Of a stretch of 31,918 bases of DNA, positions 7,301 to 24,130 are shown piece after piece. Origin of the DNA: a virus; IMG/VR virus record IMGVR_UViG_3300029319_000270, positions 1 to 31,918 of that record; one strand, given 5' to 3'. A program made the position numbers and the translations under genes. Within the stretch, counting starts at the first letter, position 1; every line of letters starts with the position of its first letter. The notes under the pieces were generated by a model. It was not told the DNA's origin and made no database searches. It saw only the letters and a program-made list of their open reading frames with translations.

Positions 7301-10300
7301 AGAGATAGTACTACTGTATTCCAGTATCAATTACCTCAACCAGCAACAGTTGTTCCTCAAGGTAATATTCTAGTATCTGTTGACTTGAATAAAGGTAAAT
7401 CTGATGATACGCCAGTATTAAATTCTATTGGACCTTATACAACTAACGTTCAAAACTCATTCTTTAATACAGAATACGTTTATGTTGCTTCTACAGGTAT
7501 TCCTAACTACAAGATCGGACCTTTTCCTGGTTCTGCTCTTCTTCCTGGCAACCAACGTAAATTAAACAGATTTCCTCTTACACCTGTTACTATATCTACA
7601 AAAAACACTATCAATCCTGGTCCTATTGGAACTTGGGTAAATGGTGTATCAATTTGGTCTTACAAGTCTAGTATCAAGAAAACATTTGGTGCTGTAACTT
7701 CGATTGATATTACAAACGCAGGTTCTGGATATGATGCTGCATCTCCTCCAAATATTACTATCTCTGGTGGTAGTGGAACTGGAGCAACTGCATCTGTTGT
7801 TGTTAACGGTTCTATCTCTGAAATCACAGTTACAAACGGAGGTTCTGGGTATACATCTTCTCCTCTAGTTTCTATTGTTGGTGGAGGCGGTTCTGGTGCT
7901 GCTGCAACTGCAATTATTACTAAAGGTGTTGTATCTAGAATCTTAATTAATGATGGTGGAACAGGATATACATCACAACCTTCAATCACTATTGTTGGTG
8001 GTGGTGGACTTGGTGCGACAGGCACAGCAAACGTTAGAGGTCCTATTCAATCTATTGCTGTAAGTAGTGGAGGTTCTTCATATACATCTAAACCTAGTGT
8101 TGTTCTAAGTTCTGGTTCTGGTGCTGTAGCACAAGCGATTGTACAGAATGGTCGTATCATTTCTATCGCTATTATCTCTGCAGGTTCTGGATATACCACT
8201 GCACCTACAATTTCAATTCAAGGTGAAGGTTTTGGTGCTGTTGCAAGAGCAACTATTGATGTTGATGGTGAAAATGCAGGTAGAGTTACTGGTATTACAA
8301 TCATTAACAGAGGTATTGGATATACACAGGGAACAACAATTATTAATTTGACTTCAGTTGGTCAAGATGCTGCGTTTAATGCTAATGTATTTGAGTGGAC
8401 ATATAACTTACAAGAAACATCCACTTTAGATGCTGCTAAGGGTGGAGTGTTTGAAGGGTTTAATGCACAGTATGGTGGAGAATATGCACACCCATCTAAT
8501 CCTCAAACTTTAAGATATATTCTTGGTGACAACTTATTTAAGAATACACAACAGCAAATCAAAGAACAGGAAGATCAATTAGTTCACTCTCCTATTATTG
8601 GATGGGCATTTGATGGTAACCCAATCTACGGTCCTTATGGTTACTCTGATCCTACTGATCAAAACTCTTCGATTGCAAGATTGAATACTTCATATCGTTT
8701 AAAGACAGAACTTGTATATGATGCAAATACAAACCCATATCCTGTAAGAACTGCAGGTCCTCTTCTTACTGCAGAAGCAGCAGGTAGATTTGTTGAAGAT
8801 TATGAATATATTTTCAGTTTAGGTGATCTTGACCAGTACAATGGTCGTTTCTGTAAAACACCCGAATATCCTACAGGTAGATATTGTTACTTCGTTACTA
8901 TTGACACTACAGAAGATGGTAACCCACTTTTCCCATATATTCTCGGTCCTAGTTTTAACTCTGTTGTTGATAGTTGGAATCTAAATGCAGACGCTGTTCA
9001 GCAAAATATTCCTACTGGTGTTGTTAGATATCGTGATCCTTATGAGAACGTTGATATTGACGTTGAGAGGGCACCAAATGCCTCTACAAACGCTCTAACT
9101 ACCGAAGATGGAGATTTACTCCTATTTGAGATAGAAGACGAAGATAGAAGCGGTGTGATCGATCAAGCAGAGATTGATGATCCTGATCAAATCTTTGAAG
9201 AATCACCTTTACAACTTTTCGATTACTTCCCTAAAGTTAAACTTGATTCTAAGGTTGATATTGAAGTTGAAACTATTACTAAATTTGAAGATGCTTCTGT
9301 AACTGGATTTACTATTGAAAACCCAGGTGTATCTTATCAGGTTGATGACCGTTTAATATTTGATAACACTGGAACTGATGGAACAGGTGTATCTGCTCGT
9401 GTTTCAAGAATTGTTGGTGAAAGTGTTTTATCATACGGATTTGAAAATGTCAATGGTAATAACTTTGGTGTATTAAAAACTACTAATCCACATAACCTAG
9501 TTGCAGGTGATACTGTCTTTATTGACTATGAACCTATTATGAACAACACAAATAAAACATTTGTTGTTCGTCAATTTAAAGGTATTGAAGAAATTGTTGT
9601 AAATCAAACTGGTTCTGGATATAACAGTGATATTCCCCCAGTAATTACTATTGTTCCTAGAGATGGTGCAGGCACATCTGGTCATTTACAAGCAGTCGTA
9701 ACAAGTGTTGGTTCTATTGATACAGTTAATATCTTAAACTCTGGATCTGGTTACACACAAAATCCTCGTGTTATCTTATCACATCCTCAGATTTTTAAGA
9801 AGGCAGATTACTATGTGTCTAAGATTGAAAATCAAAATTATGTAAAAGTTAATGACGTAGTTGTTAACATCGATAAGGAAGTTTATATTTGCGGTATCAC
9901 TCAAGACGCAACTAATAATAAAGTTGGTTTTGTTGCAAAACTTTCTGCAACAGGTGTTAAAGAATGGGAGAAAACATTAGAAAGTACAGATGGAACTTAT
10001 TACACAGAATTCCAAAAACTTTATGTTGATGGCACTAGCATTTGGGTTGTTGGTAACAACAGACCAAATAGTTCTCTCCTTGATGCCTATAATCCTGATG
10101 TAATTCTTGCAAAATACACAGAGGCAGAAAATGGTCTAAGTGCTACGCTTAATTTACAGAAAGCATATGCAGGTATTTCTGGTGCAACTCGTGCAGATCA
10201 TGTAACTGCTCTTGAAAAATATTCTGACACTAGATTTATTATTGGTGGTTTTACTAATACTAACTCTGGTGCTCCTTATGATGCATATCTTGCTCTTGTT

Positions 10301-13300
10301 GATACTAGCGGTAACTTTGCTCTTAAGAGAAAAATTGCTTCAGCAAATGCTTCTGAAAAAATTACAGACATTATTATTAATGGCACAGATGTTTATTTCT
10401 CAATGGAAACTGCAACATCTGCAAATGCAACTGCTGTTAACGCTTCATTTGGTAAAGCAACTATTGGAACAAATGCTATTACAGTTGCTTGGATCAAGGA
10501 ATATACAAATACTCTATATTCATTCATAGATGTCGCTTGCTGTATTGATGAATTTGAAGAAGTTTATATTACATCTACTCTTAGATTAAAATCAAATAAC
10601 ACAACTAGAGATAGTTTCTGGGTTGGTAAAGTTGATACTGACGGTGATTTAATATGGAATTATCGTTATCTAGTTTCTGGTGGTCAAATTTCAATGGCAG
10701 GCAAATGCAGCATTGATATTTTTGGTGATCTTAATGTTACATTTGGAAAGACTGCTACTTCAGACAGTCTTAAGACAACTGAAAGTGTGAAGATTGGATA
10801 TGATGGTGCAATTAAAAATCATACAACTAATCAGTTTAATCTTAATAATATTGAAGGTATTACACCTTATGGTATTGCTACTGATAACTCTGGTGATGTT
10901 CACATCTTTGGTCAGTCATCTTGGAACAGAAATGAGTTTATTTTCCCATTCACATCAGGATCTAACGCTGATACCACTGGTCATTATACATTAACATCTA
11001 CATCAACAAACAACTCTATCACTTATGCTGATAATGTTGCTAAGATCTTTGGTTATCAAACTGGTCAAACTTCTTGGACTCAAGCAAATCTTCAAATTAC
11101 CTCTGCTCAATTAGGTACTAAGTTAGGAGATAATTGGACTCTTGAGATGATGTTGTATAAAGATTCTACAACTACATCTTTATCACAGACACAACAAACA
11201 ATATTTGCTATCGGTGATGCTGAAGATGCAACTGGTGGGCTTTGGTTATACTATGATATGTCTTCTGGACATTTAGAACTTGCGGTTACTAATCAGACCA
11301 CTAAGTTAAATTCTGCTAGTAGTGCATTACAATCTGGTTCAACAACCATGTTTGCTAACAACTCATGGCAATTTATATCTCTTGTTAAGAATGGAAATAC
11401 ATTTACTGCTTATGTCAATGGTTTACAAGCACTTACTGGTACTGTTGCAAATACATCTTTAGGTGGTAAAGATCTTTATGTTGGTAATATTCCTGGTAGA
11501 AGCACAACAGCTGGTCAATTCCGTTCTAATGAGCAAGGAACATATTATGTTGATAATTTAAGATTAAGAAACAGAGCAGTTACTCCTACAGTTCCTTCTG
11601 ATGTAACTACATTCCCAACTGTAGGTTTATTTGGATTTACTTTTGATTGGGTTGATGATGCATGGTTTACAACTAATCTTAATCAATATGATTATATTGA
11701 TTATACTGGTTGGGGTATTAAAGTTGACAAGAATGCAGATGCAGCAAGAATTGGCACTCAAACATTACAAACAAACACACAAGTTGGTTTTATCAGAACA
11801 AATGTAACTCCTGTAACTGGGTCTACTCTTACAATGGTGACCACAGGATATGCTTTAGGTGACGCAGGTTTCCAAAACTTAGACTTTGATGATGCTACAA
11901 CAACTATGTCTCAAGATACTGAGACACTTACATATACTCAAGATGTTTGGAGTTCTAGAACTGCTACAGTTCCTTCACCAGGTTCTCAAAAACTTTCTGT
12001 TACTGCGGTTGTTAAAGATAGATACTACTTCAAAGTTACACCTACTCTGAAGATTGATAACGTTCAAGAACTAACCTTGAATCAGTCATTCAGATTTACA
12101 ACAGGTGCAAAATTAAGACTTAATAATGATTCTGGTCAGTTTGTTAACTCTGGTTATATTGTAAATCAAGATACAACCAATAATAAGATATACGTTGCAA
12201 TTAACAATAATGCGTGGAGTAATGATACAAATACTGGTCTGTTAGTTACTGAACAGTTTAGTGAGCAATCTTCTTATGGTATTGTTGGTCCTATTCCTAA
12301 CGATGTTAATGAAATTGTAGGATATACTTTCCCTCAAATTAATAATACAACACCTGGTACATTTGATATTAATTTGAATGATTACAATCATCCTGAGGGT
12401 GGTTCTAATAACTTAGATGAACTTGCTAAATTTAAACCTCATAGTGATATTGATTATTCTATCAGGATTGATGAAGTAGCTGCTGGATCACCATTTATTG
12501 TTGGATCTGTTGTATTCATTACTTCTTCTGATATTTCATTCAACGCTGCATATACTACAGCACAAATTACAAACTTAACTGCTGTTCTTAAGATTACTTT
12601 AGTAGCAAATCTAACTAAGAGATTACAAGTTTCATCTGTTGCTAATAGTGATGAAGTTTATGTTATTACTTCAAACAGTCACTATCTAAATCCTGGTGAA
12701 ATGTTATTCATCGATGGTAATCCATCTGTTGAGCAAGGTGGTGTTACTTATGATGAATATGATGGATCATTCCCAGTTGACAGAGTAATTAGTTCTAAAG
12801 AATTTGTATATAAACTTCCACAAGCAGCAGTTACTTCACCTGCTACAACAGGATCTAGTGTTAACATTTTTGTTAAATCACCTGTTATTAAAATGTATAA
12901 TGGTCACCAATATTTGTTTGACTTAAGTCATTCATCTATGGTTGGTGGTAACTTATCATTCTCTAAAGATAACTTAAACAAACTTGAATATTCATTCAAC
13001 TCTATTGAACGTGTTGGAACTCCTGGTGTTACTGGGGAAGGTGTTCCTAATCCTACAGTAAAACTAAAAGTTGATAATACTATTGTTACTAATATTTCAT
13101 ATTACTTTGATCCTTCTAGAACAGGAACTGATTCTCCAATCGTAGAAGGTAGTTACTTAGATGTTACAAATTCACCTTATCTTGGTAACTTTGTAATTAC
13201 TAGCACTTCTGGTCAAACTATTACTCGTGGTGCAGATACCTTTAAATTCTCTCTTATCAATGAACCTGAGGGTGATGCTGATATTACACAAACATCTTAT

Positions 13301-16300
13301 ACAACCAGTTCTGTAAAAGCAGTTGGATCTATTGGTGCTGTTCGTATTGTAAACTCTGGTGGATTCTATACAAGGTTACCTATTGTAAGTTCTATTCAAT
13401 CAAATAGACAGATTGAACGTGTTGCTATCAATACACCAGGTACTGAATATGCTGTTGGTGTATACAATGGAGTTCCTATCGGTGGAGATGGAGAGGGTGG
13501 TTTAGTTCAAATTACAGTTTCTGATGGAACTGATGATGAAGGTGGAGTAATTCCTGGTCAAATTAGTGAAGTTGTTGTTACATCACCAGGTAAAGGTTAT
13601 ACAACTGCTACGATTGACATTGAAGCGATTGACGGTATTTTAGGTGCAGGTTTAACTGGTTCTGGTGCAGAACTAGAAGTTGTGATACCTGCATTTGGTT
13701 CTGGTGCTTCTATCTTCACTAAAGGTGATAAAGTTGGTAAGATCAAGAAACTTAAGAACAATAACTTTGGTTATGATTACCCTCATGACTATACTTTACG
13801 TCCTGAGATTACATTCCCAATTAACGCTCAGTTAACATCTACAAGTATTCTGGCAAGTATTACCGTAACTAATCCTGGTTCTGGTTATTCTCAAGCACCT
13901 ACTGTTGTAATTACAGGTGGTGGAGGAACAGGTGCTGTTGCTGAATCTACAATTAGAAATGGTAGATTAGATCAGATCATAGTTAAAGATCCTGGTTCTG
14001 GATATTCATCTACACCAACAGTTGCACTTAGATCTGCATTTAACTATGTTGTTAACCTTGACCTAGGTTTATTACAATTTGCCTTCCCACATGGTATTAC
14101 AAATGGTTCTGCTGTAACTGTAACAGTCACCGATACAGGTAGTGGTGCAGATTTCCCTCTTGCTGCAGGTGCAGTTGGTCGTCTTAATTCAACTACAACT
14201 TATTATGCGATTGCTGGTACTGCAAATTCTCTTGAGGATGATCAATTAAAACTTGCTCTTACTCCTGCAAACGCTGAATTAGGTGATGCTCTTTCCTTCG
14301 TTAACGCTGGTGAAGGTAGACAAACTGTATTAACTGAATCATTTGGTGGTGCTGCTACAGCAAATGTTATTACATCTACATTCCTTGAAGGTGAACTTGT
14401 ATATCAAGGTGATAGTCTTGAAACTGCTACTGCACAAGGATTTGTATCTACTAACCAAGGTTGGCAGATAGGACCTAGAGTTCTTAAGATTGTTGATTAC
14501 ACTGGTGATTTTTCACAAGGACAGAAAGTAACTGGTGTCATTTCTAAGTCTTCAGGTACTATTAGTGATCTAAACATTGCTAAGGGTGTTCTTGAAATTG
14601 GTTCTATTACTAAAACTACAGGTCAATTTATTGATGATGTTGGTAAACCATCTGAGATTATTCAAAAGATACAAGATAGTTACTACTATCAAGACTTCTC
14701 CTATGCTATTAAGTCTGCTGTTTCTATTGGTGAATGGAAAGACATTCTTATTAAGAACGTTCATCCTGCATCTTTCAAAGTATTCGGTGAATTAAATCTT
14801 TCTGATTATGGATCTATTCCTAACAAAACTACTGATTTTTCAATTACAAAATCTGTTGAACTTGCTAGAGAAGCGATCGTTCCTAATATTCAAAACTTTG
14901 CTCTAGTTGAACCAGTCTATTCTGAGTTCAATAATACAGAAGTATTATTCAGACAGAAACGATTAACTTCTTCTGAGAATATCTTAACATCTGTTGTTCA
15001 AAGATTAGATGATATTTCTAATCTATTTGATGGTGAGAGAATCTCATTCCCTCTAACAGTTAATACAGATAATGTTGTTGCTAACGCTAATCAGTTAATG
15101 ATTGTATTGAATGGTGTTGTTCAGAATCCTGGCACTTCATTCCAGATTCAAGGTGATTCTATTGTATTCTCTGAACCACCTCAACCACCTGCAAGTATCA
15201 AGTATGTTAATGTAAGTATTAATCAAATTGCAACTAAAGATCTTTCATTCACTAATATTAGTGGTATTTTCCCATTAGTAGGTAATACTTTAGTTGGTAC
15301 TGTATCTCTTGCTAGATTAACAGTTACAAAGGTTGTTGGAGACGTAGTTTCTGGTTTTATTACACAAGGAACATTTGTTGTTGGAGAACTTGTTAACGTT
15401 GGTGCTACTGGATTTGCTGCTAACATTGCTGCTGTAACTGATGTTACAAGTAACGGATTATATGCTTTTGGTGAAACAGTTACTAACCTTACAGGTGAGA
15501 CCGCTATTGTTGAACAAATTAACTTAGCAACTGGTCAAGAAACACCTTTAGCACAGTTAAGATATACCATCGGACCTTCTACTACTTCTATCGAAGTTGT
15601 CGCATATAAGACTAACAATGCGACTGCTGATCAGGTTGTTCCTGATAATACATTTGTTGCAACTAAGAACTATCAATTTGGTTCTGAAATTTTTAGAGTT
15701 GATTCGATTACAAATGGTTCTGAATCTACAACTCTTGGTGTTACAAGAGCACAAAGCGGAACTGCTGCTAGTTCTCAACAAGAAGATGTTCCTGTATATG
15801 GAACTGATATTCAAGTTACAGGAGCACTTACATTAAGTAAGACTGCTGGTACATATCAATCCACACCTGGTCTTTTTGATATTCAGTTAAATGATTACAT
15901 CATCGGTGCTTCATCTGGTGTTGTATCTCAGATTACTGCAACATCTGCATATCAAGATCCTGCAACTCAAGAGTTTATCAGTCAGGTTAATATTTCAGAA
16001 GGTTCATCATTCTTTGGTTTACTATTCAACAGAATCACATCTCAAACATATCCTAACGTTGTTCTTGATAATATTTCACAGTCTCAAGTTAGTATCGTAC
16101 AATTCCAAAATAATACAACTGCATTTGACTTTGATTTCCCAAATAATGAGATCTTAAACAGTTATGTAATTCCTTATGATAATCTTGTCACAGGTCCTAT
16201 TCAACAAGACGAAACTATCCGTAATTACAAATTAGATTACGGTAATTCAAGTGGAGACTTTAATGTTGGTGAAATTTGTAATGTAAGAAAACTTGCATTT

Positions 16301-19300
16301 AAAGATAAAGTTGGAGATGGTTTCTTTGCTGCAGGTCAAGTAATTAGAACTACAGATACTAAAGCAGAAGTTATTGGATATAACCAAGCAAGAAGCACAA
16401 TTTATCTTGGTAAGATTGGTAGAACTAAATCAACAGGTGAAGATTATCACGTTGCAACATTTACTAAAGCAACAATCAATACTGCTAATAAGAAATTTGG
16501 ACAAGCATGTTTAGCATTAACACCTGGTCTTTCTGATCATACTTTTGTAAGTGGTGTCACTGATGCAATTACTGCGAGTGGTGGTGCTACAGGATCGTTT
16601 ACTGCTGCTACTGGAACTACTTACAATCCAGTAACGGGTGATATGGTTCTTGAGATTGGAACACATACTTTGACCACATCAAACACTGTAACTATCGCTG
16701 ATGGTGGTGTCACATTTACATGTGATCAAGATGGTAATGTTTCTGGTAAGGCATATCCCCGTTCAACTGATCCTGCCTCTGGATCTGCTCTTAATATCAC
16801 TGCAGTTACAGGAACTACAATTACAGTTAATGTAGGTGTTGCATCTCCAATAGATGAGTATATCAATATTCCTTCTTCTTCTGAATTTGCATTTGGATCT
16901 GATGCATTTACTATTGAGTGTTGGGTAAAACCATTATCTGCATCTCTAACAAGTGAAAGAAATATTATTGATATGAGAGCAAGTTCTGCTACTGAGGTTG
17001 CAGGTCGTTTGTATCTTAATGCTGCTCAGTTACGTTGGAATGTAAATGGTAGCGATCTTGTTAACACAGGTGCGACAGTACTTGCTGCTAATACTTGGTA
17101 TCATGTTGCAGTTGTTAAATCTTCTACAACTACTAAGATCTACATTGATGGTGTAGAAAGAGGAACAGGAACTGACTCTACCACATACACTGCTAAACCA
17201 ATTAGAGTTGGTATGGATTACGCAGGTGCTAATGGATTTGCAGGTTATATTGATGAATTAAGAGTATCAACTACAAACCGCTATACAGGTGCGTTCACTG
17301 CTCCTCTAGGGGTCTTCCAAGGTGATGCTAATACAAAACTACTATTCCACTTTGATGGTGCTAATGGAGACCAGTTTACACAAGATTGGTCTGGTACAAA
17401 TGACTTTACTAAGGGTGAAGACTTTAATAATGATGCCATACTTGAAACATCAAGATTAACTGGAACTCCTGCAGGTTTTGCTGCTAAATCTCAAAGATAT
17501 TATGACGCTGCTGATCTAATCATTGCAAATACAGACTTGATTAAGAAAGAAGTTGTATATCAAATGAGACAGAGATATCCTGAGTTAGTAATCTTAGGGA
17601 CTCGTTATACACCAACTGCTGCAACTTATGATGCTGCTACTGGTCTATTGTCTATGACAGTGACTGGTAACAGTCTAGAAAATGGTGGAACAATAACTCC
17701 TCAGACAGCAACATACGACGCTGCTACTGGTGTAATGGTAATCACTAAGTTGGCACATGGTCTTAAGAATGGTCAAAGAGTCAATATCAAGGTTGGTGGT
17801 ATCACGTTTACTTGTACACAAGATAGTAATGCTTCAGAACATTCATATCCAAGATCAACTGATCCTGTAGCTGGTAAATGGATAAAAGTTGCTAACGTAA
17901 CTGATCATACATTTGAAGTAAATGTTGGTGCATCTCAAGTTGGTCAACAATACGCACATACATTCGTTTCTGCTCTTGCTAATGCGATTACTGTTGAAAA
18001 AGACAGAATTAAGATTTTAGATAATGCATTAACATTCACATGTGCGATGGATGGTAATACTTCTAATAAAACTTATCCTCGCTCAACAGATCCTGCATCT
18101 AAAGATGTTGCTCTTCCAATCATATCTTCTAGTTCTACTAACTTAACAGTTAATGTAGGACCTTCTCCTCTAGTTAATTACCAACCATCTAACGCAACCT
18201 ACGATCCTGCAACTGGTGCATTTGTAATGACGATTGCTAATCATACAATCAATGTTGGAACACAAATTAGATTGACTGCAGACTCATTTACATTTACTTG
18301 CACACAAGATGGCAACAGTGCACAGAAGACTTATCCTCGTGCAACTGCTGGTGATGGATCTCCTGATCCTGCATACAATACTGCTCTTGATGTAACCGCA
18401 GTCGGTACAACTACACAAGATATCAGTAACGCAGCATACAATCCAGTAACAGGTATTTTGACTGTTGATACTAACTCTGCTCATGGATTAACTACAGGTA
18501 ATAGAATTCAAATCGCAGATGAATCACTGAAGTTTACTTGTGCTTATGATGGCAATGCAACTCAGCATGATTATCCTAGACAGACTGATCCTATTAGAGG
18601 TGAATGGATTGAAGTGACTGTTGTTGATAGTGATACATTTACTGTTGATATTGGAACCTCTAGTGACACTTCTACTCACTCATTTGTATCTGCAACTGCT
18701 GGTGCTTTAATCAAGCAAACTGGAACTGTAACTATCAACGTTGGTGTTTCTGCACAGGCAGATCAATATGCTCATACATTTGTATCTGCTGCAGCAAATG
18801 CAGTTGTTACTGGTGGTAACTACTTACATACATTTGTTTCTGCTGTTGATAACAGTGTCATTGGTGATGAAGGTATTAACTGTGAAGATGATATTCGTGA
18901 CACATTAAATGCAATCGTTCAAGATCTTCGTAACGGATCTAATAATCATATTTGGGATGCTGCATCTTACTACGTTAATAGAAATGTTAATCCAGTTACA
19001 ATCGCACAGATTGAACCTGCAGTTAAAGAAACATTATTTGCTTATGAAAAAGTTGATGATATGCTTCAGTACATCATCACAAATACTCTTTGGACAATTC
19101 AAGGTGATCATGGATTGACACAGAAGACTGATACTACAATTACAGATTCTTCTAATCCAACATACACATATTTCCAACCAACTGATGCAACTTACGATCC
19201 TGCCACAGGTGACATGGTGTTGACTATTGGTTCTCACTCACTTACCACTGCTTCTAGAGTTGACATTGCAATCGGTGGTATCACATTTACATGCACTAAA

Positions 19301-22300
19301 GATGGTAATGCGACTAACCATTCTTATCCTAGGGCAACTGATCCTGCTGCTAACGCTGTTCTTGCAGTTAAATCTGTTGTTGCAAACACATCTATTACAG
19401 TTAATGTAGGTAAATCTGGTCCTAATGATCAATATGCTCACACATTCGTTTCTGCTAATCAAAATGCTGTAAGAGTATTGGATTACACAACAAGTGATTG
19501 TGCAGACGTATTTACAACTGTTGGTAACTTAATTGATATTCTCACAGACACAATTACAAATGCATCTGCTAATCCAGCTGTTGATCATTTAGCAAGTGTT
19601 ACTAGAGTTGAACCAAAATATGAATTTGTTGGTGGAACTGTTGATTCGTACTTAGATACAGAATTTACTTCTACATATCAAGACACAACAAATGATATTC
19701 TTTACACTAATCAAATTGATCTTGACACTAGAGCTAGATTTAGAGATTCTGCAAGATTAATTCGTTCTAATCGTTCTGTAATTGTTGATAAAGCAGCTGC
19801 TGATATGTTGGCAAGATATCCTGCTCTTGCTCAGGATATGCCTAGAAACCAAAATGGTGGTAGCACAGATGGAACATTACGTTGTAAGACTGACCTTGGA
19901 CTAATCCTTGATGGTCTTGCTGATGATGTAGAGAATGATGGTAATTTAGGAACTGTTACTGCTGCTAAGTTCTACATTGGTAATAGCGGTGAGTTATTAC
20001 ATATTCGTTTACAAGTATTCCAGTCAGTTTATGCTCATGAGCGTCTTGCTGAGTATGCTAAACAAGCAGTTCTAGGAACTTTAGATTATACAAATACTGA
20101 TAATATTATTGTTGGAAATTGGGGTGTTGCTGGTGCAGGTACTCCTAATTACTTTGATGCTGTTACCACTTACATTGATACTCTTGTTACAACTATCAAT
20201 GATATTATTGCTCCTACAGGTAATGATTTTGAGATTGGTGCTGATAGACTTTACTTTAATAGAGATTGGATCACTGATGAAACAACTGCATACACAACAA
20301 TTAATTTCCAGTATTCACTTAACGGTGTAAATTATAATGCATTTACATATGGTGCTGGTGAGCAATTACTTGCTAGAAATGCTCTTGAGGATCTTCTTTT
20401 AGCTGTTATCTCTGATCTCCAAACAGGTGGAACTAACTCTACCATTCAAGAAATGGAGAAATATTTGAATGCAAACTTGACTATTAATAATACTGTTATT
20501 GCTGAGAAAGCACTTGCTGCAAGAATCTACTCTATTGAAAAACTGAAGACTATTGGTGAATATGCAATTAAGAACTATGCATATTCATTATCTGAAGCTC
20601 CAGTAGCATCTCCTAATTATGCTGCGATTTACACAGGAGAAGTAGCTTACAGAGATACTGAAAGTCCTGGTGATATTAACGCTGTAGCATTTAGATTCAA
20701 AGAGTTAATTGATATTGCAGTGAACATTCTTGCACCAGGTAAAAATATTGCTAGAAGTGCTGCTAAGAATATTCAATATAATACAAACTATTATAAGAAT
20801 GAAATTTCAAACCAAGTTAATGCTCAGTTTGGAACTGGTGCTTGGGTATATGATGACTTTATTGATGAGTTAGTTGATAACTTTGTATCTGATAGTATTA
20901 CAACTGATGTTACTAAAACGTCTGATGCATATACAATTACCTTAAGTGCACAAAATGGAACTGACTTTATTGTAGGTGAAGTTGTTACTTCTAGTGGTGG
21001 TGGAATTGCAACAGTACTAGAATGGGATTCTGAAAATGATTTATTATATGTCGGACCATTTACTTCAACTGCATGGGTAGCAACAAACACTCTAACTGCT
21101 CCTAGTGGTGCTACAGGAACGATTGCAAGCGGTGGTGTAAGTAGTGCTTATACTTGGTATACTGAAGCTTCAAACGTTGAGTATCTTAAGAGTGCAAGAT
21201 CTATTACTAGCAACATTGCAGGTCAAGTTTCTGGAACTAATCTTTGGACTAATCCAGAAGCATTTGGAACTAACTGGACTGAAACTAATCTTACTAGAAC
21301 AGATAATGCTTTCGCTGGTCCTGACGGAACATTAACTGCAGAAAAATATGTTGGACAAAATGGTGTAGCAGGTAATCATATCTTACATAGAGACTTTAAC
21401 TTAACTGCTTTTGAAACCTTTGATACTGATGGTGTTAAGTTTGACTCTACAGGTGAAACCTTTGACACTGGTTCTACTAGCGATGTATCTCAAACATTCA
21501 CTGCATCTGTATTCTTTAAAGCAGTTGGATCACAATCTGTTAGATTTAAGTTACAACTTGATCAAGGACAAGCAGGTGAGCAAAATATATTCTTTGATCT
21601 AAATCTTACTAATGGAACTATCGGATCTCTATTCATACCTCAACTCGGTATTACTGGAGATGCTTACGGTGCAATTCCTTATGGTAATGGTTGGTATAGA
21701 GCATATATTACAGCAACATTCTCCTTCGGTTTCTCATCTCTTAGAACTCAAGTAACAGTCAATAGTTCTGCAGGTTCTCAATCTTGGACTGGAGACGGAA
21801 CTACTGGTGTATATTTCTGGGGTGCTAAACTCAATAAGGGTGCTGTTGATCCATATACAGCAGTTGGTGGTCAAATATTCTATGCTAATACTGAGTACAA
21901 TATCAAGAATTACACTATAGATCTATTAGAAGGATATATGGGTCAAGCACTTGATGGCACATTAACATCTCCTTCACCAAATGCAGGTTTCTATAGTTAC
22001 TATGATTCTACTGCAGCGAGTGACTATGCAAAGATTTCTATTCAAAGACTTCTTAGATATGGATTAAATATCATCCGTAATCAACTTAATGTTGATACTT
22101 ACTATACAACTATTACACAAGTTAATGGTATTTCTGTTCCTACTAAGACATACGGAACTAGAGATATTCCTGTTGGTGTTTCTGGTGGATTAACTTCTTC
22201 AGATTACATTTATGGAACTGTAAGTAGTCAATATGCTGAAATAGAAAGTGTACTTGAAAACTCTGGTAAAGTTGTTCAAGTTTATCAGAGATTCCGTATT

Positions 22301-24130
22301 GATGGTGATATCACAGACGGTCCTTTTACTATGAATGAAGTTGTTGCTAAACAAGGTAATCCTTCTGTTACTGGTGTTGTATATGGTTTCTTTGAAGATG
22401 AAAACTATAAATATCTTGATGTTCGTATAACTGCAGGTCCTTGGGCAGTAGCAGATAATATTGTTGGTGCTAATAATTCTACAACAGCACAAATTAGTGC
22501 AGTTGAAGATAGACTTCATATTATTGATCTTAAAGGTGCTTTTGCTGATAATATTCCATTCAAGGGATATACATCAGGTGCAACTGCAACACCTACATCA
22601 TTCATTAAATCTGAAGCAGCAATCATTGATAATACTGGTGGTAAATTAACTGTTGATACTGCATCTTTATTAGGAACATTTGAAACAACTACTGTTGTTT
22701 ATCCAGAATCTTCTAGACAGTATTTGGATGTTGTTAAGTTCTCTGGTCTTGATATATCCGTTGGTGATAGAATTGCATCCACAGGATATAAGAGACTTGG
22801 TATTTCTATTATAAGTGGATTGAATGTATTTGCTGAAGGTAATAGACTTTATAAAGTTAACTCAGGTATTCAAGATACAAGTACGTATGCGATTATTACT
22901 GAAGTTGACCTTGATAACAATTTCATTTACATCGCAGAATATCAAGGAACATTTACCAATGGTGACATAATTGGTGATTATGGTGTTGGTGCAAGTTTCC
23001 CTGTAGGATATGCTTCTGTTCTAACTGCAACTGTAACTGCAGGTCAGGCAGCTGGTCTCGTTCAAGACATTCGTGATGTTGGACTTAATAAGAGATTATA
23101 TCTTAGTGATGTTGTAGGAACATTTGATGATAAAGATGGACTCAAAGGACCAGATTCTTATGGATCTGTAATTATTGGTAAGGTTGAACTTAAAGCTCGT
23201 GTCAAACGTTCCTTTAGAGGATTTGATGGAGTACAAACTACATTCAAACTTACTACAGATAATGGAACTCAGTATCTACCAGATCCTGCAGGTCATCTAT
23301 TAGTATTTGTCAATGGTATTCTACAACCACCAGGTGCTACTAACGCATATACAGCGTTCTCTGATACTATTCAGTTTACTGAAGCACCTGATCTTGGAGC
23401 ATCGTTTACAGGATTCTATGTTGGTAAACTTAGACAGTTAGATGATATATCATTTGAGTTTGATTCATTACGTCAGTCATTTAACTTGAAACGTAATGAT
23501 GTATTCTACTCACTAACTCTTACAGAGGGTGTACAATCTAGTGTTATCAGACCTGAGAATAATATCATCGTTTCTCTTAATGGTGTTATTCAAGAACCAG
23601 GCGTTGGTTTTGAGATTGTTGGTTCTAGAATCATCTTCTCTGAGATTCCTAGATTTGGATCAACCTTCGTTGCATTCTCTTATGTTGGTTCTGAGGCAGA
23701 CGTTGATGCTGCTGAAGTTATTCCACCAATCGAACCTGGTGACTTTATTGATATTCAAGGTGAGACAGCAGATAGACAAGTTGCTGTTATTGAATCTTCT
23801 AACTCCTTGATCACATTCGATTATCTCGGATCTGTATTTGGTCAAGGTGCTGTTGGTCAATCAGTAATTACCTCAGGATTTATTAAGAATGTTCAAGTAA
23901 CATCTGGTGGATCTGGTTATACATCAAGACCTACTGTTAGACTTGATTCTATATCTGGTTTTGAAGGAAATATTAAGGCACTTGTTGGGGTAGCAGGTGT
24001 TGAAATGAGTGCTGCAGGTTCTGGATATCAAAATCCTGCAATCAATGTCGAGACTACAGTTCCAGATGATTGGACTGCTCCTGACCTTTCATTGTATGGT
24101 GAAGAGTTAGTAGACCCCGAAACCCCATAA
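4319..24130 (+). CDS. Giant (6,603-residue) mosaic baseplate/tail protein at the gene 7 position
   Basis: A single uninterrupted frame of 19.8 kb, product roughly 0.7 MDa. Modules in order (approximate residues): family N-terminus with PAFVENDYPLFNKFIEYYY at 15-33; two short beta units (LIVSLYGKVLVPNIDYTI-type) at 140-300; GSGY repeats 300-620; conserved helical module with IKTIKDFYMAKGTSFS around 690-710; GSGY repeats 1122-1345; YHYH domain 1360-1550; EF-hand-like loop 1607-1618; probable beta-propeller 1828-2205; LamG-like 2210-2420; GSGY repeats 3003-3237; conserved QDSYYYQDFSY/VHPASF module 3452-3490; TFTC repeats and a second LamG 4070-4357; helical units and more TFTC repeats 4390-5550; jelly-roll-like domain 5635-5860; C-terminal beta units ending with two GSGY repeats. 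Gene order (25, 6, this, then 8) puts it where T4 has gp7 (1,032 residues), but homology to gp7 cannot be shown by eye. An alternative is a fused baseplate-rim and fibre protein. There is no signal peptide or Shine-Dalgarno; ATG lies 6 nt after the gp6 stop. Confidence 0.9.
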   Translation: MNINKVSQSIVNQTPAFVENDYPLFNKFIEYYYRSQEKTGLGQNILNEFLQYLDIDKLNIDVLDGATKVVESFTTTDDEIVVESVDQFLENDGSVLIGNEVIYYEKTTHAPNIALSPGISYEQVKLKWTNLASPIDSFDDSTTAFNLTSQDSPIAAPSAQHLIVSLYGKVLVPNIDYTISGTQIVFTTAPRTRIPADDASSTYITYLSGFVENPIVGIDNLSSAFGGGKTQFTITRNGTRYEPVADEYILAVYDNRLLVPKVDFFLDGDQFIFLTAPLNGRFLSLYSIEAPIPSFGSNAVGYSRVNDAGELTSVSINANGSNYRFEYPPQVSVNSDAGSGASVSSLVNGIKTISLIDGGKGYSETNPPIVQVQTPTKPGSTAAVLKATVSNGAVSGLEVLTSGSGYTFTPRITFRQPGGATLGTCPIVNGQVVGTIPITDGGFGYTTVPTVYIDEPTGVNGIRAALEAVLTDGVITSINILNAGQGYETTPRIAVIDPVGAQVLETTVDNDGRVIGIELLNGGSGFDDIPSVYIVDSRTDGQGNYAGGTGATATAAIFNGQITDINVTAFGTGYSQTSPPKVVIQSPPEARASAEIGLNEVTGFTVNQKGTGYSKAKFIGCARAASGITDYTEDGNAVFTNNTIAATGAVDASVKCLDALFVKRLLDKYTEQYLPDVPELDYKKIDVRTSIKTIKDFYMAKGTSFSISYLFKLLYGEQVSISYPKDQIIKPSAATWSIDTILRATLVSGNPVDIRDGLLTQDADIADPNIKAASALVENYISIKTSDVEIFELVLSEETINGTFVVPYKTKLAEPLNTTESIITVDSTIGWPERNGEFIIGGTEVVQYKEKSLNQFIECTRSVNNIVEDWDSATEVASSFQVFVNKGTPQEVVLKVVGIVDAQQTTLTDTGSYYLPGDKLTVSKLGGTGISPELTTWLYNVKKLISVTDISYGGVNNQSATVTCSNPHGLLVGDQVTIYGANPILFNGTFEVTSRDSTTVFQYQLPQPATVVPQGNILVSVDLNKGKSDDTPVLNSIGPYTTNVQNSFFNTEYVYVASTGIPNYKIGPFPGSALLPGNQRKLNRFPLTPVTISTKNTINPGPIGTWVNGVSIWSYKSSIKKTFGAVTSIDITNAGSGYDAASPPNITISGGSGTGATASVVVNGSISEITVTNGGSGYTSSPLVSIVGGGGSGAAATAIITKGVVSRILINDGGTGYTSQPSITIVGGGGLGATGTANVRGPIQSIAVSSGGSSYTSKPSVVLSSGSGAVAQAIVQNGRIISIAIISAGSGYTTAPTISIQGEGFGAVARATIDVDGENAGRVTGITIINRGIGYTQGTTIINLTSVGQDAAFNANVFEWTYNLQETSTLDAAKGGVFEGFNAQYGGEYAHPSNPQTLRYILGDNLFKNTQQQIKEQEDQLVHSPIIGWAFDGNPIYGPYGYSDPTDQNSSIARLNTSYRLKTELVYDANTNPYPVRTAGPLLTAEAAGRFVEDYEYIFSLGDLDQYNGRFCKTPEYPTGRYCYFVTIDTTEDGNPLFPYILGPSFNSVVDSWNLNADAVQQNIPTGVVRYRDPYENVDIDVERAPNASTNALTTEDGDLLLFEIEDEDRSGVIDQAEIDDPDQIFEESPLQLFDYFPKVKLDSKVDIEVETITKFEDASVTGFTIENPGVSYQVDDRLIFDNTGTDGTGVSARVSRIVGESVLSYGFENVNGNNFGVLKTTNPHNLVAGDTVFIDYEPIMNNTNKTFVVRQFKGIEEIVVNQTGSGYNSDIPPVITIVPRDGAGTSGHLQAVVTSVGSIDTVNILNSGSGYTQNPRVILSHPQIFKKADYYVSKIENQNYVKVNDVVVNIDKEVYICGITQDATNNKVGFVAKLSATGVKEWEKTLESTDGTYYTEFQKLYVDGTSIWVVGNNRPNSSLLDAYNPDVILAKYTEAENGLSATLNLQKAYAGISGATRADHVTALEKYSDTRFIIGGFTNTNSGAPYDAYLALVDTSGNFALKRKIASANASEKITDIIINGTDVYFSMETATSANATAVNASFGKATIGTNAITVAWIKEYTNTLYSFIDVACCIDEFEEVYITSTLRLKSNNTTRDSFWVGKVDTDGDLIWNYRYLVSGGQISMAGKCSIDIFGDLNVTFGKTATSDSLKTTESVKIGYDGAIKNHTTNQFNLNNIEGITPYGIATDNSGDVHIFGQSSWNRNEFIFPFTSGSNADTTGHYTLTSTSTNNSITYADNVAKIFGYQTGQTSWTQANLQITSAQLGTKLGDNWTLEMMLYKDSTTTSLSQTQQTIFAIGDAEDATGGLWLYYDMSSGHLELAVTNQTTKLNSASSALQSGSTTMFANNSWQFISLVKNGNTFTAYVNGLQALTGTVANTSLGGKDLYVGNIPGRSTTAGQFRSNEQGTYYVDNLRLRNRAVTPTVPSDVTTFPTVGLFGFTFDWVDDAWFTTNLNQYDYIDYTGWGIKVDKNADAARIGTQTLQTNTQVGFIRTNVTPVTGSTLTMVTTGYALGDAGFQNLDFDDATTTMSQDTETLTYTQDVWSSRTATVPSPGSQKLSVTAVVKDRYYFKVTPTLKIDNVQELTLNQSFRFTTGAKLRLNNDSGQFVNSGYIVNQDTTNNKIYVAINNNAWSNDTNTGLLVTEQFSEQSSYGIVGPIPNDVNEIVGYTFPQINNTTPGTFDINLNDYNHPEGGSNNLDELAKFKPHSDIDYSIRIDEVAAGSPFIVGSVVFITSSDISFNAAYTTAQITNLTAVLKITLVANLTKRLQVSSVANSDEVYVITSNSHYLNPGEMLFIDGNPSVEQGGVTYDEYDGSFPVDRVISSKEFVYKLPQAAVTSPATTGSSVNIFVKSPVIKMYNGHQYLFDLSHSSMVGGNLSFSKDNLNKLEYSFNSIERVGTPGVTGEGVPNPTVKLKVDNTIVTNISYYFDPSRTGTDSPIVEGSYLDVTNSPYLGNFVITSTSGQTITRGADTFKFSLINEPEGDADITQTSYTTSSVKAVGSIGAVRIVNSGGFYTRLPIVSSIQSNRQIERVAINTPGTEYAVGVYNGVPIGGDGEGGLVQITVSDGTDDEGGVIPGQISEVVVTSPGKGYTTATIDIEAIDGILGAGLTGSGAELEVVIPAFGSGASIFTKGDKVGKIKKLKNNNFGYDYPHDYTLRPEITFPINAQLTSTSILASITVTNPGSGYSQAPTVVITGGGGTGAVAESTIRNGRLDQIIVKDPGSGYSSTPTVALRSAFNYVVNLDLGLLQFAFPHGITNGSAVTVTVTDTGSGADFPLAAGAVGRLNSTTTYYAIAGTANSLEDDQLKLALTPANAELGDALSFVNAGEGRQTVLTESFGGAATANVITSTFLEGELVYQGDSLETATAQGFVSTNQGWQIGPRVLKIVDYTGDFSQGQKVTGVISKSSGTISDLNIAKGVLEIGSITKTTGQFIDDVGKPSEIIQKIQDSYYYQDFSYAIKSAVSIGEWKDILIKNVHPASFKVFGELNLSDYGSIPNKTTDFSITKSVELAREAIVPNIQNFALVEPVYSEFNNTEVLFRQKRLTSSENILTSVVQRLDDISNLFDGERISFPLTVNTDNVVANANQLMIVLNGVVQNPGTSFQIQGDSIVFSEPPQPPASIKYVNVSINQIATKDLSFTNISGIFPLVGNTLVGTVSLARLTVTKVVGDVVSGFITQGTFVVGELVNVGATGFAANIAAVTDVTSNGLYAFGETVTNLTGETAIVEQINLATGQETPLAQLRYTIGPSTTSIEVVAYKTNNATADQVVPDNTFVATKNYQFGSEIFRVDSITNGSESTTLGVTRAQSGTAASSQQEDVPVYGTDIQVTGALTLSKTAGTYQSTPGLFDIQLNDYIIGASSGVVSQITATSAYQDPATQEFISQVNISEGSSFFGLLFNRITSQTYPNVVLDNISQSQVSIVQFQNNTTAFDFDFPNNEILNSYVIPYDNLVTGPIQQDETIRNYKLDYGNSSGDFNVGEICNVRKLAFKDKVGDGFFAAGQVIRTTDTKAEVIGYNQARSTIYLGKIGRTKSTGEDYHVATFTKATINTANKKFGQACLALTPGLSDHTFVSGVTDAITASGGATGSFTAATGTTYNPVTGDMVLEIGTHTLTTSNTVTIADGGVTFTCDQDGNVSGKAYPRSTDPASGSALNITAVTGTTITVNVGVASPIDEYINIPSSSEFAFGSDAFTIECWVKPLSASLTSERNIIDMRASSATEVAGRLYLNAAQLRWNVNGSDLVNTGATVLAANTWYHVAVVKSSTTTKIYIDGVERGTGTDSTTYTAKPIRVGMDYAGANGFAGYIDELRVSTTNRYTGAFTAPLGVFQGDANTKLLFHFDGANGDQFTQDWSGTNDFTKGEDFNNDAILETSRLTGTPAGFAAKSQRYYDAADLIIANTDLIKKEVVYQMRQRYPELVILGTRYTPTAATYDAATGLLSMTVTGNSLENGGTITPQTATYDAATGVMVITKLAHGLKNGQRVNIKVGGITFTCTQDSNASEHSYPRSTDPVAGKWIKVANVTDHTFEVNVGASQVGQQYAHTFVSALANAITVEKDRIKILDNALTFTCAMDGNTSNKTYPRSTDPASKDVALPIISSSSTNLTVNVGPSPLVNYQPSNATYDPATGAFVMTIANHTINVGTQIRLTADSFTFTCTQDGNSAQKTYPRATAGDGSPDPAYNTALDVTAVGTTTQDISNAAYNPVTGILTVDTNSAHGLTTGNRIQIADESLKFTCAYDGNATQHDYPRQTDPIRGEWIEVTVVDSDTFTVDIGTSSDTSTHSFVSATAGALIKQTGTVTINVGVSAQADQYAHTFVSAAANAVVTGGNYLHTFVSAVDNSVIGDEGINCEDDIRDTLNAIVQDLRNGSNNHIWDAASYYVNRNVNPVTIAQIEPAVKETLFAYEKVDDMLQYIITNTLWTIQGDHGLTQKTDTTITDSSNPTYTYFQPTDATYDPATGDMVLTIGSHSLTTASRVDIAIGGITFTCTKDGNATNHSYPRATDPAANAVLAVKSVVANTSITVNVGKSGPNDQYAHTFVSANQNAVRVLDYTTSDCADVFTTVGNLIDILTDTITNASANPAVDHLASVTRVEPKYEFVGGTVDSYLDTEFTSTYQDTTNDILYTNQIDLDTRARFRDSARLIRSNRSVIVDKAAADMLARYPALAQDMPRNQNGGSTDGTLRCKTDLGLILDGLADDVENDGNLGTVTAAKFYIGNSGELLHIRLQVFQSVYAHERLAEYAKQAVLGTLDYTNTDNIIVGNWGVAGAGTPNYFDAVTTYIDTLVTTINDIIAPTGNDFEIGADRLYFNRDWITDETTAYTTINFQYSLNGVNYNAFTYGAGEQLLARNALEDLLLAVISDLQTGGTNSTIQEMEKYLNANLTINNTVIAEKALAARIYSIEKLKTIGEYAIKNYAYSLSEAPVASPNYAAIYTGEVAYRDTESPGDINAVAFRFKELIDIAVNILAPGKNIARSAAKNIQYNTNYYKNEISNQVNAQFGTGAWVYDDFIDELVDNFVSDSITTDVTKTSDAYTITLSAQNGTDFIVGEVVTSSGGGIATVLEWDSENDLLYVGPFTSTAWVATNTLTAPSGATGTIASGGVSSAYTWYTEASNVEYLKSARSITSNIAGQVSGTNLWTNPEAFGTNWTETNLTRTDNAFAGPDGTLTAEKYVGQNGVAGNHILHRDFNLTAFETFDTDGVKFDSTGETFDTGSTSDVSQTFTASVFFKAVGSQSVRFKLQLDQGQAGEQNIFFDLNLTNGTIGSLFIPQLGITGDAYGAIPYGNGWYRAYITATFSFGFSSLRTQVTVNSSAGSQSWTGDGTTGVYFWGAKLNKGAVDPYTAVGGQIFYANTEYNIKNYTIDLLEGYMGQALDGTLTSPSPNAGFYSYYDSTAASDYAKISIQRLLRYGLNIIRNQLNVDTYYTTITQVNGISVPTKTYGTRDIPVGVSGGLTSSDYIYGTVSSQYAEIESVLENSGKVVQVYQRFRIDGDITDGPFTMNEVVAKQGNPSVTGVVYGFFEDENYKYLDVRITAGPWAVADNIVGANNSTTAQISAVEDRLHIIDLKGAFADNIPFKGYTSGATATPTSFIKSEAAIIDNTGGKLTVDTASLLGTFETTTVVYPESSRQYLDVVKFSGLDISVGDRIASTGYKRLGISIISGLNVFAEGNRLYKVNSGIQDTSTYAIITEVDLDNNFIYIAEYQGTFTNGDIIGDYGVGASFPVGYASVLTATVTAGQAAGLVQDIRDVGLNKRLYLSDVVGTFDDKDGLKGPDSYGSVIIGKVELKARVKRSFRGFDGVQTTFKLTTDNGTQYLPDPAGHLLVFVNGILQPPGATNAYTAFSDTIQFTEAPDLGASFTGFYVGKLRQLDDISFEFDSLRQSFNLKRNDVFYSLTLTEGVQSSVIRPENNIIVSLNGVIQEPGVGFEIVGSRIIFSEIPRFGSTFVAFSYVGSEADVDAAEVIPPIEPGDFIDIQGETADRQVAVIESSNSLITFDYLGSVFGQGAVGQSVITSGFIKNVQVTSGGSGYTSRPTVRLDSISGFEGNIKALVGVAGVEMSAAGSGYQNPAINVETTVPDDWTAPDLSLYGEELVDPETP
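5218..6180 (+). repeat. GSGY repeat block 1 of the giant protein (about 8 units)
   Basis: Encoded units of about 35-45 residues share the pattern: short beta strand, Gly-x-Gly-Tyr (GKGYSE, GSGYTF, GFGYTT, GQGYET, GSGFDD, GTGYSQ, GTGYSK), then Pro-x-V/I-x-I strand, Gly/Ala loop, and a nG-x-I/V-x-x-I strand. The units are diverged rather than identical, so they are old. The block lies between the N-terminal signature and the KDFY module. Confidence 0.8.
6270..6560 (+). other. Conserved helical module of the giant protein (KDFYMAKGTS)
   Basis: Residues about 651-747. It holds FVKRLLDKYTEQYLPDVPELDY, then K695-D696-F697-Y698 followed by AKGTSFSISYLFKLLYGEQ and SYPKDQI. I recognise this R/K-D-F-Y-x-x-K-G-T pattern, together with the residue 15-33 signature, from large structural proteins of marine T4-like phages. 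These two segments define the family to which the N-terminal half belongs. Confidence 0.65.
7685..8350 (+). repeat. GSGY repeat block 2 of the giant protein (6 units)
   Basis: Six consecutive units: GSGYDAAS, GSGYTSS, GTGYTSQ, GSSYTSK, GSGYTTA and GIGYTQG. Each has a P-x-I/V-x-I strand and a GGGGxGA loop. This is the most regular array in the window and the best template for a profile of the repeat. Two isolated units follow at about 9600-9780 (GSGYNSD, GSGYTQN). Confidence 0.85.
8400..8960 (+). other. YHYH domain within the giant protein
   Basis: Residues about 1360-1550. The first half has SPIIGWAFDGNPIYGPYGY. The second has LDQYNGRFCKTPEYPTGRY, then FPYILGPSFN. These are the characteristic YHYH-domain segments (D-G-x-P-I-Y-G-P and Y-N-G-R-F-x-x-T-P-E-Y-P). 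The tetrapeptide that names the family is Y1522-C-Y-F1525 here, so both His are replaced. The domain's biochemical role is not known to me. Confidence 0.75.
9137..9172 (+). other. EF-hand/dockerin-like calcium loop in the giant protein
   Basis: Residues 1607-1618 read DEDRSGVIDQAE. This matches the 12-residue EF-hand loop pattern (D at 1, D at 3, S at 5, G at 6, I at 8, D at 9, E at 12). It lies in a strongly acidic linker after the YHYH domain. Only one loop is visible, so calcium binding is an inference. Confidence 0.5.
9800..10935 (+). other. Probable beta-propeller domain in the giant protein
   Basis: Residues about 1828-2205 contain repeated short motifs of the kind 'evYicGi... vGFVAKLsatGvkeWekt', 'IWVVGNN... 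DVILAKYT', 'FIIGGFT... DAYLALVDTSGNF', 'VYITSTL... FWVGKVDTDGDLIWNYRYL' and 'VHIFGQSSW'. The recurrence of a beta strand plus Gly, then a vaKld-G-W strand is typical of SBBP/PQQ-like propeller blades. The number of blades is not certain (five to seven). Confidence 0.6.
10945..11580 (+). other. LamG/concanavalin-like domain 1 in the giant protein
   Basis: Residues about 2210-2420: NWTLEMMLYKD, GLWLYYDMSSGHLEL, SWQFISLVKNGNTFTAYVNG, then YVDNLRLRNRAVTP. These are the standard strands of the LamG/ConA-like jelly roll. Such domains often bind glycans in phage fibres, but no ligand can be named. Confidence 0.65.
13325..14030 (+). repeat. GSGY repeat block 3 of the giant protein (diverged)
   Basis: Four looser units: GGFYTR, GKGYTT, GSGYSQA and GSGYSST. 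Acidic and Gly-rich loops between them (GGDGEGG, DGTDDEGG) are not seen in block 2. The block precedes the QDSYYYQ module. Confidence 0.65.
14640..14800 (+). other. QDSYYYQDFSY / VHPASF module of the giant protein
   Basis: Residues about 3441-3494 contain IQKIQDSYYYQDFSYAI (Tyr 3455-3457) and VHPASFKVFGEL (His 3482). I associate this pair of motifs with the distal part of the same marine phage protein family whose N-terminus opens this gene. Here more than 3,100 residues follow it. Confidence 0.55.
16440..17390 (+). other. LamG-like domain 2, interrupted by a TFTC repeat
   Basis: The opening strand (ATINTANKKFGQACLAL, about base 16465) and the rest of the fold are in one frame. The rest is YINIPSSSEFAFGSDAFTIECWVKP, then WYHVAVVKSSTTTKIYIDGVERG, then GYIDELRVSTTNRYTG, from about base 16858. 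Between them lies one HTFVSG/TFTC repeat (about 16530-16855). Without the insert the LamG fold would be continuous. Confidence 0.6.
17480..20950 (+). repeat. Duplicated helical units in the giant protein, with TFTC insertions
   Basis: Unit part 1 occurs at about 17494-17610 (RYYDAADLI...MRQRYPEL) and 19735-19830 (RFRDSARLI...MLARYPAL). A trace appears near 20750 (IARSAAKNI). Part 2 occurs at about 18876 (INCEDDIRDTLNAIVQDL), 19877 (LRCKTDLGLILDGLADDV) and 20375 (ALEDLLLAVISDL). Each part 2 is followed by a helix like YAHERLAEYAKQA, IYSIEKLKTIGEYAI or FAYEKVDDMLQYI. These are diverged copies of one alpha-helical module. Confidence 0.6.
17623..18870 (+). repeat. TFTC/HTFVSA repeat array in the giant protein
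   Basis: About four to five diverged units share ATYDPATG-x-x-V/M-T-I, a glycine turn, F-T-C-x-x-D-G/S-N, three to five residues, Y-P-R-x-T-D-P, a T-V-N-V-G strand and a QYAHTFVSA end. FTC/YPR pairs occur near bases 17807, 18037, 18290 and 18530. A related unit precedes LamG 2 (16617-16860) and another lies at 19178-19475. Each unit carries a single Cys. Confidence 0.75.
21220..21900 (+). other. Jelly-roll/carbohydrate-binding-like domain in the giant protein
   Basis: Residues about 5635-5860: NLWTNPEAFGTNWT, TFTASVFFKA, GNGWYRAYITATF, then GVYFWGAKLNKGAVDPYTAVGG. The N-x-W opening, the W-Y/R-R strand and the closing 'G-V-Y-x-W-G-A-x-L-x-x-G' strand are typical of phage-fibre jelly-roll domains related to carbohydrate-binding modules. 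The ligand is unknown. Confidence 0.5.

Follow-up and report, generated by a model that had tools for sequence, protein, structure and literature searches.

Evidence that a predicted β-barrel repeat of marine cyanophages is nested in loops of a giant structural protein

Results

Repeat units in a giant ORF of the baseplate region

We analyzed the virus record IMGVR_UViG_3300029319_000270 (IMG/VR), a stretch of 31,918 nucleotides (31.9 kb) referred to below as the window. Its gene order is that of the baseplate region of a T4-like cyanophage (Kyanoviridae): gp25, gp6, a giant open reading frame (ORF) of 6603 codons, gp9, the gene for a protein of 1387 amino acids (aa), and gp8. The same order is found in P-RSM4, ACG-2014g, and S-SM1. 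The subject of this study is a repeat in the giant protein, the TFTC/HTFVSA unit, which the original prediction, made from the sequence alone, had described as an itinerant domain inserted into loops of other domains at three sites. In some deposited relatives the gene is annotated as 'similar to gp7', and PHROG 701 ('virion structural protein') matched along the whole length of the giant ORF (E 0 in four of four scanned segments). The orthologue in S-SM1 is a virion protein: it is labelled T4-GC969, which is among the 41 proteins detected by proteomics of purified S-SM1 virions (PMC3037559).

Units were located with a profile trained on named phages alone, with the window and its nearest relatives left out. 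Six complete TFTC cores of about 75 aa each (77-104 bits) and one half-unit were found in the giant ORF, compared with a top score of 1.4 bits among 200 shuffles of the giant protein. One core lies within the domain LamG 2, behind its first strand and ahead of the later ones, four between the motifs RYPEL and INCEDDI of a helical domain (copy A), and one between GDHGLTQ and SDCADV of the same copy (Table 1). All three insertion sites are therefore present in the sequence, and all units share one unbroken frame of 6603 codons. A single unit of type E splits LamG 2, as had been proposed; the 'several units' said to part the halves of helical copy A are exactly four, plus a half-unit head and tail remnants; and the next loop holds one Z-type unit, again as expected. 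Four of the anchor motifs lie where the original prediction had placed them (KKFGQACLAL, 16490-16519; YINIPSSSEF, 16859-16888; INCEDDI, 18875-18895; LRCKTDL, 19877-19897). The other two had been misplaced by 16-22 bases, since RYPEL occupies 17573-17587 (not 17595) and RYPAL 19814-19828 (not 19830). In helical copy B, RYPAL and LRCKTDL are separated by about 16 residues, close to the 15 previously given. After deletion of the array, helical copy A aligned to copy B with a score of 91 (shuffled mean 28, maximum 40).

Table 1. Features of the giant ORF and its inserts, with positions in the window
Feature	Position	Strand	Basis
Giant virion structural protein, 6603 aa, host of all insertions	4319..24130	+	gp7 position (between gp6 and gp9); PHROG 701; synteny with P-RSM4, S-SM1, ACG-2014g
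LamG 2, N-terminal piece, before site 1	16406..16519	+	Aligns with pentraxin-like jelly rolls
Insert at site 1: single unit of type E, permuted form with the HTFVSG strand ahead of the core	16520..16858	+	Filled versus empty relatives
TFTC core type E (site 1)	16619..16843	+	103.9 bits
LamG 2, C-terminal piece (PF13385)	16859..17359	+	Pfam E 2.2e-24; AlphaFold2 model and fold match
Helical copy A, first helices, ending in RYPEL	17495..17587	+	Alignments to relatives and copy B
Site 2 insert: half-unit head, units A-B-C-D, tail remnants	17588..18874	+	~430 aa here versus 7 aa in S-SM1
Half-unit, head only (site 2)	17624..17707	+	6.9 bits
TFTC core type A (site 2)	17711..17935	+	Profile search, unit typing
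TFTC core type B (site 2), without YDPATG head	17945..18166	+	Profile search, unit typing
TFTC core type C (site 2)	18197..18430	+	Profile search, unit typing
TFTC core type D (site 2)	18434..18661	+	Profile search, unit typing
Tail remnants HSFVSA, HTFVSA, HTFVSA behind unit D	18662..18859	+	Sequence, alignments
Helical copy A, second part (INCEDDI ... GDHGLTQ)	18875..19138	+	Flank profile blocks, copy B alignment
Insert at site 3: single unit of type Z, HTFVSA strand behind the core	19172..19474	+	Flank profile blocks, alignments
TFTC core type Z (site 3)	19190..19417	+	100.3 bits
Helical copy A, third part (SDCADV ... VTRVEP), end approximate	19493..19615	+	Flank profile block B4
Helical copy B, uninterrupted here (RYPAL ... 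LRCKTDL), end approximate	19736..20098	+	Sequence, copy A alignment

The insertion sites are filled in some relatives and empty in others

The lengths of the sites were measured with profile blocks for their flanks in over 100 homologous frames, near-duplicate contigs being counted. Site 1 is 110-114 aa long with one unit in 47 frames, and only 5-9 aa without a unit in 77. Filled site 2 loops measure 422-653 aa and contain four units (15 frames), five (one frame), or seven (four frames); most other loops at this site have about 7-8 aa. At site 3, one to five units occupy 122-624 aa, and truly empty loops have 10-19 aa. A fourth place is the linker from LamG 2 to the first helix, where 21 frames carry one unit (134 aa versus about 34 aa). 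When filled and empty relatives are aligned, the host sequence runs on at both sides of the inserts. An example is the empty site 2 of S-SM1, which reads QYPSLVIPGGNVNCEDDIRD; in the window, the anchors shared by both are about 430 residues apart. Natural empty alleles, the homologues without inserts that the original prediction had proposed to look for, were thus found at all three sites. Genome searches detected no unit anywhere in the complete genomes of S-CAM8 and S-ShM2; ten further phage genomes have their units in one or two giant structural proteins. Judged from these sequence comparisons, the loops act as cargo sites in a conserved host domain, each being either empty or occupied by at least one barrel. 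That the units are nested insertions and have been gained and lost is very probable.

In one clade (99% support), site 2 has no TFTC unit and contains a 377-399-aa insert instead. This insert matches FG-GAP_2 in six repeats (PF14312; E 8.7e-79 in locus L134 and 2.5e-71 in L033), and the corresponding propeller of about 380 aa replaces the barrel array at 11 loci, all of this clade (L134, L033, and L053 among them). The loop evidently accepts unlike domains, and the flanking helices are still recognizable around them.

Predicted structure and fold of the unit

LamG 2 and its unit were modelled together with AlphaFold2. The predicted local distance difference test (pLDDT) exceeded 90 for most of LamG and was about 75-87 for most of the unit, dropping to 57-71 at residues 101-130. 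In a fold comparison with VIA-align, the LamG 2 model matched the jelly rolls of PAPP-A and PTX3 with Z 18-19.5 at 2.3-2.6 Å over 173-179 aligned residues. The match extends from model residues 26-33 to about 318 and skips an insert of about 108 residues. Since the matched range spans the insert but leaves its residues unaligned, the LamG 2 jelly roll closes around it, which agrees with the earlier view that LamG 2 is continuous without the insert. With the insert excluded, the host domain shows both the family match to LamG (PF13385) and the jelly-roll fold. A model of the helical domain together with its array was poor, with a predicted template modelling score (pTM) of 0.39 and pLDDT below 50 for much of the helical part; the barrels mostly reached 70-90.

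The fold of the unit was searched with barrels within the multi-domain model, and the absence of a fold from the VIA-align list is not evidence against that fold. The closest matches were the FCCH domain of ubiquitin E1 (Z 8.6, 2.5-2.6 Å, 76-79 residues) and the barrels of phage endosialidases (phi92, Z 8.1; residues 424-508 of the K1F-type endosialidase NF, Z 7.7; 1.9-2.3 Å, 78-81 residues), with Z scores in both cases just above the level of common arrangements. Foldseek gave weak rows of low probability, including strings of fibronectin domains. Scans of five units against Pfam up to E 10 yielded weak hits of one unit each to E1_FCCH (PF16190, E 0.071) and Fn1_2 (E 0.15); none of the five units matched E1_FCCH significantly. 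Sequence searches with the unit in NCBIfam, the PDB, and plasmids returned nothing relevant, and no curated family of Pfam or NCBIfam matched. A common immunoglobulin (Ig) fold was considered but found no support: Pfam scans of the region and of the five units (to E 10) gave no Ig family, and the top VIA-align rows were FCCH and endosialidase barrels. Based on the models, the module would best be called an unnamed FCCH-like barrel, a name that denotes fold resemblance and not family membership.

The unit occurs in two forms, which differ in strand order. Among 34 distinct single inserts at site 1, every one has the HTFVSG strand ahead of the core and none has it behind. For site 3, the HTFVSA strand lies behind the core in 34 of 42 inserts and ahead of it in none. 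A likely explanation of the two forms is a closed barrel with adjoining ends that can be excised from a tandem array in one register or the other.

The unit was matched in 330 of 50,697 phage records, all of them cyanophages or marine viruses, and was absent from the plasmids searched. A cellular origin was discarded, since all five matches to cellular genomes are accompanied by the domains of the giant protein and seem to lie on phage contigs. One contig of the Nonlabens xiamenensis 1Q3 assembly (NZ_RMVE01000006.1, our locus L181; 188,235 bp) shares 98.8% identity with cyanophage P-TIM40 (188,632 bp) over 6.2 kb; therefore, a whole cyanophage seems to be part of this assembly.

Exchange of the site 2 cassette and unit types at several sites

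In a tree of the units, those of site 2 fall into four groups (A-D, 95-98 support) according to array position and not to phage, and most filled site 2 loops keep the order A-B-C-D. The site 2 cassette is therefore old and ordered. The arrays of ACG-2014g and P-RSM4 are 84% identical, their flanks only 51%. Conversely, ACG-2014g and locus L146 have flanks with 91% identity, and site 2 of L146 is empty. For P-SSM7 and L029, the values are 91% for the flanks and 76% for the arrays, and such close pairs give no sign of slower array evolution. Furthermore, a clade of five phages in the flank tree (100/99 support) is rejected by the array data (approximately unbiased test, p-AU 7e-58). Because the array and flank phylogenies conflict, we conclude that the four-unit cassette was exchanged between phages, and its lateral exchange independently of the flanks is well supported. 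The spread by recombination that had been postulated is thereby borne out for this cassette.

E-type units are not confined to site 1 but also occupy the linker, site 3, and copy B of P-SSM7-like phages; in P-SSM7, L029, and L059, the units of site 1 and the linker and the first unit of site 3 are all of this type. Related arrays also occur in other genes, encoding a tail fibre protein of Syn1 and a structural protein of Sf-FP1. This recurrence of one unit type at several sites and of arrays in other genes supports movement between sites, as originally suggested, within the moderate resolution of a 75-column tree. The idea that the site 3 array of L108 is the ordered site 2 cassette of the window was dropped, since the type assignments there are weak.

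Other features of the window

In its N-terminal third, the giant protein has a YHYH domain (PF14240, E 8e-32) at 8384-8908 (aa 1356-1530), and similar YPIYGPYGY text recurs in the 1387-aa protein (25378-29541). Both the end of gp9 (24154-25374), HPFRIQ...YYQCTIHAAMAG, and the stretch YYYCKNHPNMSG of the 1387-aa protein resemble a cupredoxin-type copper site. Repeats of the type GGSGYTSxPTVxIxGGGGxGA are numerous in the giant ORF, mainly at aa 300-1900, where several PHROG tail families match repeatedly; they also occur in gp8 and the 1387-aa protein. A 181-aa His/Pro/Gly-rich protein encoded at 1155-1700 looks like a PAAR-type spike tip. Kinship of the TFTC unit with a domain bearing the motif NPHGL..GDQV (about aa 953-1013) was not accepted, because the two profiles could be matched over 15 columns with a probability of just 38%; the resemblance is suggestive of a shared barrel motif.

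Discussion

A proposed nested and exchangeable barrel module

We propose that the TFTC/HTFVSA repeat is a small, self-contained β-barrel module of marine cyanomyoviruses and that exposed loops of a giant protein from the baseplate region would harbor it as a nested domain. Such barrels would move through recombination between coinfecting phages, and unequal exchange could alter the number of units. As a whole, this explanation appears probable to us. The following points weigh against it. Because the model of the helical domain with its array is weak, nesting in this domain is argued from the empty sites and not from structure. In addition, site 1 nearly always carries type E, site 2 the series A-B-C-D, and site 3 type Z; since most units stay at their own site, much of the pattern must reflect vertical inheritance or same-site exchange and not frequent jumping. 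Finally, any two units of one protein share at most 78% nucleotide identity over stretches of at least 150 nt, so the movement events are old and none is recent. A recent mobile element was rejected for this lack of high-identity copies within one protein.

Units are presumably displayed on the virion surface, given the proteomics of a related virion (PMC3037559). There, the barrels might add weak multivalent contacts to host-surface glycans at adsorption. Outward display and glycan binding are suggested because the orthologue is present in the virion, the barrels keep company with LamG and a propeller, and their predicted fold resembles that of endosialidase barrels; a glycan-contact function is nonetheless a tentative assignment. 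Evolution data for S-TIM4 (PMC6224464) were left out of the argument, since the main text there does not mention ORF101. Gain, loss, multiplication, and swapping of such plug-in domains probably varies the grip on the host. Taken further, fixed baseplate loops may form a plug-in system that takes interchangeable, self-closing cargo circulating among phages and tunes host-surface binding on an unchanged scaffold, an extension that we regard as possible. Its cargo, to be read with the same reserve, could comprise two forms of FCCH-like barrel related by circular permutation, cassettes of four barrels in a set order, and FG-GAP propellers.

A serious rival holds that the barrels bind no ligand and serve passively, as spacers or stiffeners that determine how far the baseplate appendages reach. 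The freely variable number of units (0 to 20 per ORF), the dispensability of the modules, and the resemblance of tandem arrays to extension elements are all in line with this idea. But site 2 also takes an FG-GAP propeller of unlike shape, a single barrel in the LamG loop would presumably lengthen the protein little, and the predicted fold resembles the endosialidase barrel, a hotspot of host discrimination (PMC12632334). Overall, we consider a pure spacer role rather unlikely.

Exchange could also be restricted to the same site, by homologous recombination in the flanks and with no move to new sites. The flanks are indeed conserved and the types keep to their sites in most phages, but the E-type units shared by three places in P-SSM7, L029, and L059 and the related arrays in different proteins of Syn1 and Sf-FP1 do not fit, which makes this restriction unlikely. 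That the units are ancestral and were merely deleted in many lineages, so that nothing travelled, agrees with their largely site-specific types across phages and with parsimony on the flank tree (four changes at site 1, six each at sites 2 and 3), which cannot separate gain from loss, but pure loss can yield neither 84% identical arrays between 51% identical flanks nor a flank clade rejected by the arrays, and it leaves unexplained why P-SSM7 has E-type units in its linker and at site 3 and why tail-fibre proteins contain arrays, so that we regard it as very improbable.

The proposed barrel module offers a worked case in which adhesion-type phage modules move as nested domains and not as tail-fibre tips, with filled and empty alleles available in cultured phages. 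It also identifies an unnamed domain in sequenced phages and makes the role of the giant structural proteins of widespread cyanophages testable, including whether their variable parts help to set host range.

Comparison with known systems

Ig-like domains of phages are small, dispensable β domains that occur on unlike virion proteins, have spread among phages, and are thought to aid adsorption; programmed frameshifting is a frequent way in which they are joined to a structural protein. The original prediction had likened the TFTC units to them. This holds for behavior, as the units too are small dispensable β domains on unlike virion proteins and have spread among phages. It does not hold, as far as tested, for family and fold: no Ig family of Pfam matched, and the nearest folds are barrels. 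Moreover, TFTC units are inserted inside other domains within one ORF instead of being appended by frameshift, and were found here only in marine cyanophages.

Tandem β domains are also known from the BACON repeats in a structural protein of crAssphage, discussed as a hotspot of evolution (PMC6949934). TFTC arrays share the tandem arrangement, but belong to another family, lie in LamG and helical loops, and can be replaced by a propeller. The barrel of the K1F endosialidase is one of three polysialic-acid sites and a hotspot of host discrimination (PMC12632334). Its fold and that of phi92 appear similar to the predicted TFTC barrel, with no detectable sequence relation; this likeness comes from the predicted fold, and the endosialidase barrel is part of a tailspike enzyme, whereas the TFTC barrel is located in a baseplate protein. 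FCCH (PF16190) is both the best fold match and the best weak Pfam match. However, it is part of the eukaryotic ubiquitin-activating enzyme, and the phage module has a conserved stretch of its own, TFTC...YPRSTDP.

In the literature searched, we found no paper on the TFTC/HTFVSA module. Tandem β repeats (PMC6949934) and domain shuffling of phage proteins (PMC10684548) are already known; as far as tested, the novelty lies in the domain family and its nesting in loops, in a single loop with interchangeable cargo, and in the occurrence of two registers. Protein-level mosaicism, in which fragments are exchanged among the phage proteins that meet the host (PMC10684548), is the closest general framework, from which the TFTC cargo sites differ in being loops inside folded domains, in accepting unlike cargo at one site, and in holding a module that comes in two permuted forms.

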